This document shows, in pieces, positions 3,703 through 15,656 of a stretch of 31,174 nt of DNA. The notes below the pieces were generated by a model that saw nothing but the letters and a program-made list of their open reading frames with translations, was not told the origin of the DNA and made no database searches. Numbering within the stretch: the stretch's first letter is position 1; the number at the start of each line of letters is the position of its first letter. The stretch is from a virus: positions 1 through 31,174 of the IMG/VR virus record IMGVR_UViG_3300009079_000075; one strand, 5' to 3'. A program made the translations under genes and the position numbers.

Positions 3703-3722
3703 GGTCATAAATATTTATGACC
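3703..3722 (+). promoter_or_regulatory. Late promoter (CATAAATA, 3706-3713) inside a perfect 20-bp palindrome
   Basis: GGTCATAAATATTTATGACC is a perfect inverted repeat centred between 3712 and 3713. It holds a late octamer on each strand (CATAAATA reading right at 3706-3713, and its mirror reading left). It lies immediately before the tape measure ATG at 3724. The rightward copy predicts RNA starting near 3719, a leader of about 5 nt. Confidence 0.6.
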
Positions 3723-3723
3723 A

Positions 3724-6700
3724 ATGGAAGAAAACATAGGAAAGTTAATTGATTCATTAACTGAGCTAGTAAGAGAGCTCAGAGATAAATCCACAGGATC
3801 TGCTGTAGAAGATCAAAGAAAGGATGACGGCTTCTTTGATCCTAATAAAGAAAAGAATAAAGAGCAGCAGGACTTAGCCGATAAAATAACCAAAGGCATA
3901 AAGGATAATGATGATGAGTCTGAAAGAAGTAGAAACAACAAGAAACAGCCTAGAAAGATCTTAGATAAGGTCACATCTGTTAAGATTGTTGATATCGATA
4001 AGAAGGTGTTGAGTAAGTTATCAAGCATCATACCAAGTAGTAATATGAAGAGTAAGATAGATGATGATAAAAAGAAGGCCAACCCGAAAGGCTTCAAGGA
4101 TATTTTAAAAACATTAGGTTTAGGTGCATTAGCTTTAGTTATAGCTCCTATCGTCACGTTGGTGACCTCCTTTCAAACAATTGCGAAGCAAGCATGGTTC
4201 TTATCTCTAAAGAAACTTGTAACAGAGAGTAAGTTTTGGGGCGCGATCAAGAGCTTCGCAGGTACAATCAAAAGCTTTTTTGGTGGTTTGGGTGCTAAGT
4301 TTCCTGTGCTTGGGAGTATCTTCGGAAAAGTTGGAGGTGTGCTCGGCAAGGTGCTCGGCACAATAAAAAGTGTAGGTGGTACAATCTTTAATCTGATACA
4401 AAAGACAAAAATTTACACTGTAGCTGAAAAGATTGGTAAATTTATTGGCAATATATTCGCTCCAATTATAATATTATGGGGCGCTGTCAAGACAGTGATG
4501 GGTGCTATCGAAGGTTACAATGAGGATGGAATTGCAGGTGCAATCAAAGGTGGGATCAACGCTCTGTTCGACTTCATGGTAGGAGATCTTGCTAAGTTGA
4601 TAGCGGCAATACCAGCGTGGATTTTAGAAAAAATTGGTTTGAAAAATATGGCCGGTGCCTTAACCAAAGGAGTTGATGGTATAATACAGAGTCTTAAAGA
4701 TTTGGTTGGTGGTTTGGTAGATACTGTTGTTGGTGTTTTTACTTTTGATAAAGAAAGAATTCTCAAGGGAATCGGCGGGCTTATGGATGGTCAGGTTGAT
4801 CTAGTGGGGTGGGTTTTGGGTATGGCTATTGACCCGGCTATAAATTTCTTGAAAGATGTATTCAAATGGGGAGATCCAGGTGTACCATTCAGTTTCAAAG
4901 AGGATGTTGTGGATCCAGCCTGGAAAGCGGTTAAGGATTGGTTTAACAAGATATTATCATTCGGCGACACAGCAGATGGTGGGTGGTCGTTACTCAAGTT
5001 CGTCAATAATGTAGAACAAAAAATAAAAGACTTTTTCATTGGAATGTTCACTTGGGCATTCACTGCTGGGGCAACAAAGCAAGGTGAATGGAGCTTGACT
5101 ACGTTCATAGGTACAGTATTTGAGGATGTGAAGGCGTGGTTAGTGAGTATGTTCAGTTGGGTTAATCTAGATCCGGTGTGGTCGTTAAAGGATGCAGTTA
5201 CAAAAACATGGAACAATGTAAAAACATGGTTCACAAGTCTAATATCATGGTCAGAGACCGACATGTCTGCAGGAGTTGAGGATGGATTCATCATTAGCTC
5301 TGTCAAAGGTGTGGTTTTGACTATAAAGATGTGGTTTGACAAACTATTAACATTCGATAGTGCAGAATCAACAATAACAAGCCTGATAAACATTAAAACA
5401 TGGTTACCGAATCTTGTCACAACCGGATTGGGTAAAATATCTGAATGGTTCTTGAGATTATTTGGCTTTGATGAACAAGCGGATACCGTTAAGGAGTGGA
5501 ATGATAAATTTTCGATTGGCTCTCTTGTAGTGGGTGCTGTAAGTGCGGCTTGGGAATGGGTTTCGAGTAAATTTCATGATGCTAGTAAATTATATGCAGA
5601 AAAGTGGGATGAAGTCGCGAAGGGGTTCAAGGATGTAGGAGAGTTTATATGGAGTGGTGTGTCAGGTGCTTGGAATTGGTTGAAAGAATTATGGGATAAC
5701 CCGAAAAAGATAATTGAAGATGGATGGAATCGAGCAGCATCTGGTGTCAGTTCGATCGGTGATTGGATTTGGAATAACATCAAAGACACGTGGAGTTGGT
5801 TTAAAGGTTTATGGTCCAGTGCCAGTGAAACACTCGAGCGTGGTTGGAATCAAGCAACCGCGGGTGTAACCGACGTGGGCAGTTGGATTTCAAGCAATAT
5901 CACGAGCGCATGGAGTTGGTTTGAAGGTTTGTGGATTGATACTAAAAAATCCTTCGAAGATGGTTGGAATAATTTGACGGGCAGTGTGAGTGACGTGGGT
6001 AGTTGGATTTGGAGTAAAATAAAAGATGTGTGGAGTTGGTTTGAGGGTTTGTGGTCCAGTGCTAGTGAGTCACTCAAGCGTGGCTGGAATGGTTTAACAC
6101 AAGGTGTTACTAATGTGGGTAGTTGGATCTGGAGTAACATTAAAGGTGTGTGGAGTTGGTTTGATGGTGTGTGGTCCGATGCGAAGAAGACTCTCAAGGA
6201 TGGCTGGAATCAAGCAACTACAGGAGTCACTGATGTGGGTAGTTGGATTTGGAGTAAAATGAAGGTTGTGTGGAGTTGGCTTGAAGATATATGGACTGAT
6301 CCTGTAAAATCACTTAAGGATGGTTGGAGTGGTTTAACACAAGGTGTTACTAATGTGGGTAGTTGGATTTGGAGTAGAGTGAAGACTGCAATGGATTACT
6401 TAATCACACTATTACCTGTGGACATGAGTGCTTCGATTAGAACAGGGTGGGCATCTATATTCGGAACGGAAGGTATTGGATCATTTCTTAGTAACAGGAT
6501 CGCTGCCATTGGTGATTGGTTTACAGAAACGTTCGGAAACTTGAAAAAGAGTTTAGTTACAGCAACTCCAGCGTGGGTAAAGAATCCTGGTGAATTTATA
6601 ATGAGTAAGTTACAACCCGTATTTGACTTCTTTCATGAGTTGTTTGATTTTGAAAAACATATCTTTAAGATAAAGCAGTACGCGAATTCTAAACTACCTG

Positions 6701-13474: not shown

Positions 13475-14395
13475 ATGTTTGAGAGTTTATGGATTGAAAA
13501 ATATCGCCCTAGTAAATTAGATCAGCTAGTCTTGTCTGATAATAACAGACAGATATTAAAGAAATATCAAAAGACTGGAGAGATTCCTAACTTATTGTTC
13601 ATCGGCCCAGCCGGTATTGGAAAAACTAGTTTGGCTCGCGTTATTTGTAATGATGTTTTGGGATGTCAATATTTATATATAAACGCAAGTGATGAAAACG
13701 GCATTGATACAATACGGTCGAAGGTTACTAATTTCTCTCGAACAAAGAGTTTCGATGGAAAGATCAAGTGTATTATTTTAGATGAGACAGATGGTCTCAG
13801 CCTAGACGCACAGAGAGCTTTGCGTAACACCATGGAGGAGCATTCATCAATAACAAGATTTATACTAACAGCGAACTATAACCATAGGATAATACCACCA
13901 CTGCAGAGTAGATGTCAATCATTAGACTTAACACCAGATATGAAGGGATGTTTAGAGCGAATTGATCATATAGCTAAATGTGAGTCGATAGAGGTTACAG
14001 ATCAACAAAAGCTGCATGAGTTTGTTAAAAAATGTTATCCAGATTTACGTAAATGTATAAATGAGATACAAAAAAATACTATTGATAACAAACTGTGCCT
14101 CGACAACTTAGTCAAAGTCAAGGATGTGTTCGTTGAGAGCTTGTATGAAATAATAAACAAGGGACTTGCAATGAAAGCTAGGAAAAAAATCATCGAGAAT
14201 GAGCATGTTTTTAGTGGTGATTATACAGAGCTACTGAGATCCCTATTTAATTATATTGATAGTTCATCAATGAACAATAATGACAAGGCTACGTGGTTAT
14301 TAGTAGTATCAGAACACATATATCGCGCTAGCTTTGTTATGGATCCTGAAATTAACTTTTACTCGTGTATTATAGAGCTATCAACAAAAAAATGA
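13475..14395 (+). CDS. 44: Sliding clamp loader ATPase subunit (gp44-type, RFC-like)
   Basis: A 306-residue AAA+ clamp loader (T4 gp44 is 319). It starts with the 'WIEKYRP' motif. It carries Walker A GPAGIGKTS (44-52), Walker B CIILDETD (99-106), sensor-1 TAN (132-134) and the SRC arginine-finger motif QSRCQ (144-148). It loads the ring-shaped clamp onto primer ends for the replicative polymerase. 'NASDENGID' and 'DAQRALRNTMEE' are closer to cellular RFC small subunits than T4 gp44 is, whereas the C-terminal PDLRKCINEI segment resembles gp44. The partner gp62 and the clamp gp45 are not in this window. It is cotranscribed with dUTPase. Its last 15 bases overlap the 3' end of a minus-strand gene. 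Confidence 0.92.
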   Translation: MFESLWIEKYRPSKLDQLVLSDNNRQILKKYQKTGEIPNLLFIGPAGIGKTSLARVICNDVLGCQYLYINASDENGIDTIRSKVTNFSRTKSFDGKIKCIILDETDGLSLDAQRALRNTMEEHSSITRFILTANYNHRIIPPLQSRCQSLDLTPDMKGCLERIDHIAKCESIEVTDQQKLHEFVKKCYPDLRKCINEIQKNTIDNKLCLDNLVKVKDVFVESLYEIINKGLAMKARKKIIENEHVFSGDYTELLRSLFNYIDSSSMNNNDKATWLLVVSEHIYRASFVMDPEINFYSCIIELSTKK

Positions 14396-14533
14396 TTTTA
14401 TCCTTGTGGATAAGGATTTGATCCAACCACAAAAAAGACATTTACTTGCACAACATTCCTTTGGTTGGTTTGCAGGCTTTTTTCTAGGACGACCTCTAGG
14501 TCTTTTAGGTTTTTGTGTACTATTTTGTTTCAT
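14381..14533 (-). CDS. Small AT-hook and Cys-cluster protein
   Basis: A 50-residue basic protein. Residues 8-20 are Lys/Arg/Pro rich, and RPRGRPRKK (11-19) contains a canonical AT-hook core (RGRP), which binds the minor groove of AT-rich DNA. A Cys cluster follows (C27, C28, C32, C35: ECCASKCLFCGW) with a final Cys at 50, which might bind a metal. Its start overlaps the stop of the upstream minus-strand gene in TAATG (14531-14535), a strong sign of coupled translation. Its 3' end overlaps the gp44 gene tail to tail by 15 bases. Role unknown; DNA binding is inferred from the motif. A random ORF giving both the hook and the coupling is unlikely. Confidence 0.75.
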   Translation of the reverse strand: MKQNSTQKPKRPRGRPRKKPANQPKECCASKCLFCGWIKSLSTRIKSFFC

Positions 14534-15099
14534 TAGGAAATATATCTAGATGTATATGACTCAGCACCGGTTGCTCCTTGTTGTTTTATATCCTTATCTG
14601 TCATTGCTTTATTATTCTTATCATCCGTGCCGGTCTGTCTAGTAGGAGATGTAAATTGGTCACCTTCTTCTTCAACCTTTTTGAGTTCTGTTGGTTTTAC
14701 GTCAATATTCTCTTCACGCTTGAGACTATCTGGAATATCTGGTAATGTGTCATTAGGTCCGTCCAATTCTATTAAATTTTGAGGCAATGTAACAAACACA
14801 CCATTAAACCTACCAGGAGCTGTTTCCTGTGTAATATCAATATGAAAATCATCAGTACCTAATGCTTGATCAACGCTGGAATTAACTGCAGGTCGTAGTG
14901 TCTTTACTGAACTAACACGCAGAATGAGATCTGATTCATCCAATTCCCTCAGCTTGTCTATTAATTGCTGAGGAGCTTTGGTAGACCACTCGTCCTGGTT
15001 CCAGCCCTGTTTTAACTTAATAATATCACCGGTCAAAAACCCGCCACCTTGATATCTTGAAAAATTACTTTCAAAAATTGTGTTAAATTTACTAGTCAT
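14533..15099 (-). CDS. Unknown phage protein, late-promoter driven
   Basis: A 188-residue protein of unrecognised function. The N-terminal part FNTIFESNFSRYQGGGFLTG then DIIKLKQGW looks ordered and resembles a segment I associate with hypothetical proteins of marine T4-like phages. Residues about 40-115 alternate helices and strands. The last 70 residues (from about 120) are charged and Thr/Gln/Lys rich and probably disordered. It is read leftward from its own late octamer at 15106-15113 and is coupled to the AT-hook gene, so the pair forms a two-gene late unit, possibly for a minor virion or DNA-condensing function. That last point is inference from expression class only. Confidence 0.8.
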   Translation of the reverse strand: MTSKFNTIFESNFSRYQGGGFLTGDIIKLKQGWNQDEWSTKAPQQLIDKLRELDESDLILRVSSVKTLRPAVNSSVDQALGTDDFHIDITQETAPGRFNGVFVTLPQNLIELDGPNDTLPDIPDSLKREENIDVKPTELKKVEEEGDQFTSPTRQTGTDDKNNKAMTDKDIKQQGATGAESYTSRYIS

Positions 15100-15105
15100 T
15101 TTAAT

Positions 15106-15113
15106 TATTTATC
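15106..15113 (-). promoter_or_regulatory. Late promoter (GATAAATA) for the leftward pair
   Basis: On the minus strand GATAAATA lies 6 nt before the ATG at 15099. T4 geometry puts the RNA start at 15100, a one-base leader. It is divergent from the rightward late promoter at 15153-15160, the two octamers being 39 bp apart. Confidence 0.6.
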
Positions 15114-15152
15114 AACCCCCCGAGCTTTTCCAGGCGTATTTTAAACTACTGT

Positions 15153-15167: not shown

Positions 15168-15656
15168 ATGGCTATTGTTATAAACAATTTAACTCGAACA
15201 AAAACGTACACGCAAAAGGATATAACGTATAAGGATATCTGGTTCGACTTGCAAGAAGATGCATTACCGACAACAAATACAGCTTTTGGTGATATAACCA
15301 GATCTGATATTAGAGTGTCGAGTGATGAGGGCGCTATTTTGAATAGTATCAAAAATATATTCACCACCGTACCTGGGCAGAAAGTTTTAAATCCATCGTT
15401 CGGTGTCAATCTAGTACAATGGTTGTTTGAGCCGTGTTCAGATTTTAATGCTAGAGAGATAGGTGAAGCTGTAGTTAATGGAATTGAGAGGTTCGAACCG
15501 AGGGTAGTCGTTAATGGTGTTACAGTACTACAAGACCCTGATAGAAATGAATATCAAATTAAACTTGCATTGCTAATGCCGCAGTTAAATATTAACAAAG
15601 AGTATAGAGGAGTTTTAAGTTCTCCTGGATTCGATTTTATAACAGAAAATGAGTGA
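15168..15656 (+). CDS. 25: Baseplate wedge protein (gp25-type)
   Basis: A 162-residue protein of the gpW/gp25 family. EGAILNSIKNIF (54-65), then TTVPGQKVLNPSFG and QWLFEP (84-89) are the family signature, the latter corresponding to the conserved core around the 'EP' motif. A following ENFEPR-like segment is seen here as IERFEPRV. gp25 is the small, universally conserved core of the wedge that binds gp6 and nucleates sheath assembly. T4 gp25 is 132 residues; the extra length is an N-terminal strand segment and a C-terminal extension. The next gene (gp6) begins within the last 8 bases of this one, a fixed pairing in contractile tails. Confidence 0.92.
   Translation: MAIVINNLTRTKTYTQKDITYKDIWFDLQEDALPTTNTAFGDITRSDIRVSSDEGAILNSIKNIFTTVPGQKVLNPSFGVNLVQWLFEPCSDFNAREIGEAVVNGIERFEPRVVVNGVTVLQDPDRNEYQIKLALLMPQLNINKEYRGVLSSPGFDFITENE

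Follow-up and report, generated by a model that had tools for sequence, protein, structure and literature searches.

AT-hook proteins of the HMGA type have multiple hooks and end in an acidic tail, and a single AT-hook binds weakly by itself. Proteins of the H-NS/Lsr2 type bind DNA by an AT-hook-like minor-groove mode. AT-hook proteins are also encoded by PM2-like prophages and Ralstonia filamentous phages, and a role in replication has been proposed for them (PMC1950889). The early T4 protein MotB, for which KOW and OB-fold domains are predicted, binds DNA nonspecifically and changes H-NS-DNA contacts (PMC7827196). The C-terminal amphipathic helix of MinD binds membranes weakly and in a valency-dependent manner (PMC6803595).

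The DNA analyzed here (the window) is IMG/VR record IMGVR_UViG_3300009079_000075, positions 1-31,174, from an uncultured T4-like phage. Its 31,174 bases have 37.8% G+C and carry tail and baseplate genes of T4-like type. A species-genome search for the host gave no informative match, and HTVC008M was the sole isolate phage that matched the gp44 DNA, with a different gene order. The features of the locus are as follows.

13475..14395, plus strand: gp44 clamp-loader large subunit (phrog_168, E 6.8e-78), convergent with the small hook gene.
14381..14533, minus strand: small hook gene, 50 aa, with a flexible AT-hook tail (residues 1-26) and a predicted Cys-rich helix (residues 27-49).
14384..14455, minus strand: cysteine cluster and putative cationic amphipathic helix, codons 27-50, CCASKCLFCGWIKSLSTRIKSFFC (AlphaFold2 helix; hydrophobic moment).
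14480..14509, minus strand: AT-hook with basic flanks, PKRPRGRPRK, codons 9-18, conserved across all counterparts.
14531..14535, minus strand: TAATG stop/start overlap, a probable site of translational coupling.
14533..15099, minus strand: P0002, the upstream gene (188 aa), whose family is conserved beside gp44 across a broad uncultured clade.
15102..15113, minus strand: late-type promoter element GATAAATAATTA, just upstream of the P0002 start.
15127..15132, minus strand: TGGAAA element, lying upstream of NATAAATA at a distance of exactly 13 nt.
15168..15656, plus strand: baseplate wedge gene of gp25-like type, oriented away from P0002 (divergent), with its own promoter-like element AATAAATAATCA.

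The 50-aa open reading frame is a genuine gene, easily overlooked. Translation of 14533..14381 on the minus strand gives MKQNSTQKPKRPRGRPRKKPANQPKECCASKCLFCGWIKSLSTRIKSFFC followed by a stop, and the hook core is R13-G14-R15-P16, within PRGRPRK. A sequence-only reading had described a 50-residue frame with an AT-hook and C27-C28-C32-C35, starting in a TAATG overlap behind a late-promoter gene and lying opposite the end of gp44; it gave no strand. Each of these points was borne out, and the strand is minus. The ATG of the hook gene and the stop codon of P0002 have one base in common, the 3' ends of the hook gene and of gp44 overlap by 15 nt, and the final residue, C50, is a fifth cysteine beyond the four of the cluster, absent from that description. 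No Shine-Dalgarno-like sequence was seen before the hook gene ATG, which is consistent with coupling to P0002.

As for the promoter, the element NATAAATAATTA was found directly upstream of P0002 in every close relative, and a similar element stands before gp25. The consensus of T4-type late promoters is TATAAATA; judged by its sequence, the element before P0002 matches it, and late timing of the hook gene may be expected from this promoter. A TGGAAA-like element (TGGAAA, TGGGAAA or TAGGAAA) keeps a fixed spacing of 13 nt to NATAAATAATTA in 12 of 12 clade sequences, with a variable spacer, and the remaining late-type promoters in the window showed no such element. At window positions 3706-3719, directly before the tape-measure gene at 3724, the palindrome CATAAATATTTATG represents two late-type elements that overlap on opposite strands.

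Searches with the hook protein itself were ineffective because it is too short and basic. Single-sequence and alignment searches returned mostly unrelated AT-hook tails of phage proteins of ~200-640 residues, or nothing; tblastn against isolate phages gave no match, the low-complexity filter probably masking the hook, and neither a significant PHROGs match nor a PDB match was obtained. Against the Pfam AT_hook model PF02178, whose curated cut-off is 17.4 bits, the window copy scored 12.7 bits, below the cut-off, and the L037 copy described below scored 17.1 by hmmscan of the protein and 19.1 by genome search. A Pfam Tat match (E 0.0057), under the cut-off, was judged compositional.

Counterparts were instead reached via the neighbors gp44 and P0002 on other IMG/VR contigs. 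A gene in the same slot was found in six related contigs, representing four distinct sequences: L028, L029 (identical to L030), L032 (identical to L033) and L037. In all of them the RGRP(R/K) hook is N-terminal and is joined by a variable basic linker to CC and more cysteines, and the C-terminus is basic/hydrophobic. The P0002-hook gene junctions are tight in all four (from a 1-nt overlap to a 3-nt gap), which supports coupling. The clearest pair is L032 and L037, 60% identical. The copy in the window stands farther off (aligned identity 40-44%, with the match to L037 restricted to residues 1-20 at E 0.004), so that the case for its homology is made by slot, coupling and architecture jointly.

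Purifying selection on the hook gene is clear in L032/L037, the best-diverged pair, with pS 0.67 against pN 0.27 (Fisher p 1e-5) and a dN/dS of about 0.2, dS being near saturation. Within the hook stretch, seven of eight codon changes are synonymous and the exception is one R/K exchange; the shared cysteines are retained in 6 of 6 cases, three of them with synonymous changes. Outside the hook stretch and the shared cysteines, 17 of 39 residues are identical. The pair L028/L029, with 2 synonymous and 4 nonsynonymous changes, is uninformative, and the last cysteine is missing in L029. The sequence-only reading had made its claim depend on conservation of the frame in relatives and on purifying selection at the hook and Cys codons. 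The changes in L032/L037 are almost only synonymous at these codons. The check was passed in part: the frame, the hook and the Cys sites are kept where the gene occurs, but not every relative has the gene.

This patchy occurrence, like the putative C-terminal cationic amphipathic helix, went unmentioned in that reading. The hook gene is absent from the slot in the nearest relatives of the window phage (by gp44 and P0002). The slot is empty, with gp44 and P0002 converging directly, in L001, L021, L031, L035, L036 and nearly all distant relatives, and it holds an unrelated Lys-rich gene of 57-66 aa in L034 and L002-L006. The absences refer to the slot beside gp44; since all contigs are fragments of genomes, a copy elsewhere in slot-negative genomes is possible. 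On the gp44+P0002 tree, the hook label takes 3 changes, and the constraint to one clade (a single origin) gave p-AU 0.08, which neither rejects nor demonstrates a single origin. Because several sister phages are without it in the slot, the hook gene is dispensable and its role accessory. Small basic genes come and go beside gp44, and for the most part their tight junction with the gene upstream is preserved.

Two other kinds of small gene were observed next to gp44. The Lys-rich slot genes at L034:3122-3295 and L002:3113-3313, between the P0002 homologue and gp44, encode a STPD(V/I)NEAW motif. Distant phages with a different upstream gene have another small protein, with a C-terminal CCGR or CCGRR:

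L085:3912-4166, L089:3915-4169 and L092:3908-4183: proteins of 84-91 aa, convergent to gp44.

An AlphaFold2 model of the hook protein, built on five sequences (pTM 0.29), leaves residues 1-26 without secondary structure and places residues 27-49 in a single helix (pLDDT ~83). The final ~14 residues resemble a cationic amphipathic helix: on the Fauchere-Pliska scale the hydrophobic moment of the best C-terminal 14-residue segment is 0.63-0.69, with a net charge of +2 to +3, in 5 of 5 copies. Against shuffles, the moment of this segment gave p 0.006-0.041 in four copies and 0.051 in the window copy. The amphipathicity of the whole 22-25-residue helix was not significant in most copies. On the Eisenberg scale, too, the C-terminal amphipathicity fell short of significance in the majority of copies. 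The whole protein has a net charge of +13 to +18.

The sequences establish the gene, its architecture and conservation, the selection on it, its late-type promoter and its dispensability. From these features we infer DNA binding, a partner for the helix and a tethering role, and the explanation that we favor, tentatively, is a late bipartite DNA adaptor in which a minor-groove hook is joined to a helix that associates with the membrane, with itself or with a partner, thereby tethering or clustering phage DNA. The hook gene would be transcribed together with P0002 from the late-type promoter and translated through reinitiation at TAATG. The disordered, strongly basic N-terminal tail would insert its one AT-hook into the minor groove of AT-rich DNA, for example that of the phage itself, at 38% G+C. 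The predicted C-terminal helix, in which one side presents cysteines and hydrophobic residues and the opposite side Lys/Arg, would supply multivalency, either at the inner face of the membrane or through contacts with other copies or a partner. Each end is expected to be weak alone, so that multivalency would matter, as it does for the MinD helix; jointly the weak ends might tether or cluster phage DNA during head filling. A more specific version, in which a phage-made DNA-to-membrane or redox-locked tether, produced late, holds replicated AT-rich phage DNA at the membrane where heads fill, or locks it in the particle by disulfides, is possible but rather doubtful. Against the adaptor speak the modest amphipathicity, the missing transmembrane segment, the weak binding expected of a lone AT-hook, a helix model built on five sequences (pTM 0.29) and the absence of the gene from the slot in several sister phages. 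DNA compaction, marking of phage DNA and nucleoid effects, the roles suggested from the window alone, are possible.

Compaction is the substance of the rival that survives best, a virion-internal, protamine-like condenser that would be packaged with the DNA, neutralize its charge and be cross-linked as its cysteines oxidize outside the reducing cell. The five hook proteins have 28-32% Lys/Arg and 5-7 cysteines in 50-74 residues; the late-type promoter beside baseplate genes and the alternative occupation of the slot by another very basic small gene (L034, L002-L006) fit such a role as well. However, no capsid-targeting evidence was obtained, the cysteines fall within the predicted helix alongside hydrophobic residues, and some sister phages have neither small gene in the slot, so a condenser seems unlikely. 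The general view, moreover, is that tailed phages usually fill their heads with no help from DNA-condensing proteins and that they require no special link between DNA and membrane. Through the hook protein, conserved in uncultured T4-like phages and preceded by a late-type promoter, both ideas could be tested on a small and cheap scale.

Less probable again is a modulator of the host nucleoid, which would compete for the AT-rich minor-groove sites of xenogeneic silencers as T4 MotB and anti-H-NS proteins do. The binding mode of an AT-hook resembles that of H-NS/Lsr2-type proteins, MotB offers a precedent for a nonspecific DNA binder that alters H-NS-DNA contacts (PMC7827196), and the upstream partner P0002 weakly resembles MotB-type SH3/KOW domains. 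The P0002 family lies between gp44 and gp25 across a broad uncultured T4-like clade; it was not found among isolate phages, and a PDB sequence search with P0002 gave no match. Its model is poor (mean pLDDT 52), and several of the weak fold matches are SH3-like or KOW barrels (best E about 0.02, not significant); the viral matches include T4 MotB.1 and a regulator of MotB size. Kinship between P0002 and MotB is a lead only. In addition, late expression would be odd for host takeover, and the hook protein is without an H-NS-like oligomerization domain, no Pfam or PHROGs match to the oligomerization and DNA-binding domains of H-NS/MvaT/Lsr2-type proteins having been obtained.

Instead of DNA, RNA or acidic lipids might be what the basic tail binds, a further point against the adaptor. 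As a membrane-active or lysis-related small protein, the hook protein would act on anionic lipid or RNA through this tail and its hook-like peptide, and the late-type promoter, the putative cationic amphipathic C-terminal helix and the small size would all suit it. Nevertheless, conservation is highest in the precise RGRP(R/K) core, beyond the needs of charge-based lipid or RNA binding, and no transmembrane segment was found in the hook proteins (maximum Kyte-Doolittle 19-residue mean 0.5-1.8). We regard this explanation as a little weaker even than the nucleoid modulator.

A zinc-binding mini-finger fused to the AT-hook, implied when the cysteines were read from the window alone, was not supported. 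Each copy has at least four cysteines, with CC and one later C invariant, but the spacing is different in each subfamily (CCx3Cx2C, CCx3CxCx5C, CCx4CCx4CxC, CCx5CCx4CxCx4C) and a single helix is predicted through the cluster, which makes a classical Cys4 zinc finger unlikely; no zinc family was matched, and we consider this reading improbable. That the frame is a chance, non-genic one is hardly credible: it is short, missing from the nearest relatives and poorly served by the L028/L029 comparison, but its position, coupling and architecture are conserved in four further distinct sequences, L032/L037 show a strong synonymous excess, and open segments with a basic-RGRP-basic stretch and at least four cysteines numbered 0 in 60 Markov simulations against 1 in the window.

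The bipartite adaptor that we favor can be set beside the known systems as follows. With T4 MotB and anti-H-NS phage proteins, the hook protein shares its small size, its accessory place in a T4-like phage and, presumably, DNA binding; it is modeled as a tail and one helix and not as KOW and OB-fold domains, and the weak resemblance to MotB is on the side of P0002. With the targeting helices of MinD and FtsA it has in common a short helix, apparently cationic and amphipathic, at the very end of the chain, but it is without an ATPase or actin-like domain, its cysteines lie on the hydrophobic side, and its membrane binding is hypothetical. The AT-hook proteins known from PM2-like prophages and from Ralstonia filamentous phages, likened here by description, are also phage-encoded, whereas the present protein belongs to a T4-like phage, follows a late-type promoter and carries a predicted cysteine helix. 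Like the AT-hook proteins in general (PF02178; HMGA type), it has an RGRP core with basic flanks in a disordered basic tail; unlike HMGA, it has a single hook and no acidic tail, its basic C-terminus being joined to a Cys-rich cationic helix. The literature searched did not contain this combination of hook and Cys-helix, and the hook protein, with a putative function as set out above, is a previously undescribed small form of AT-hook protein.
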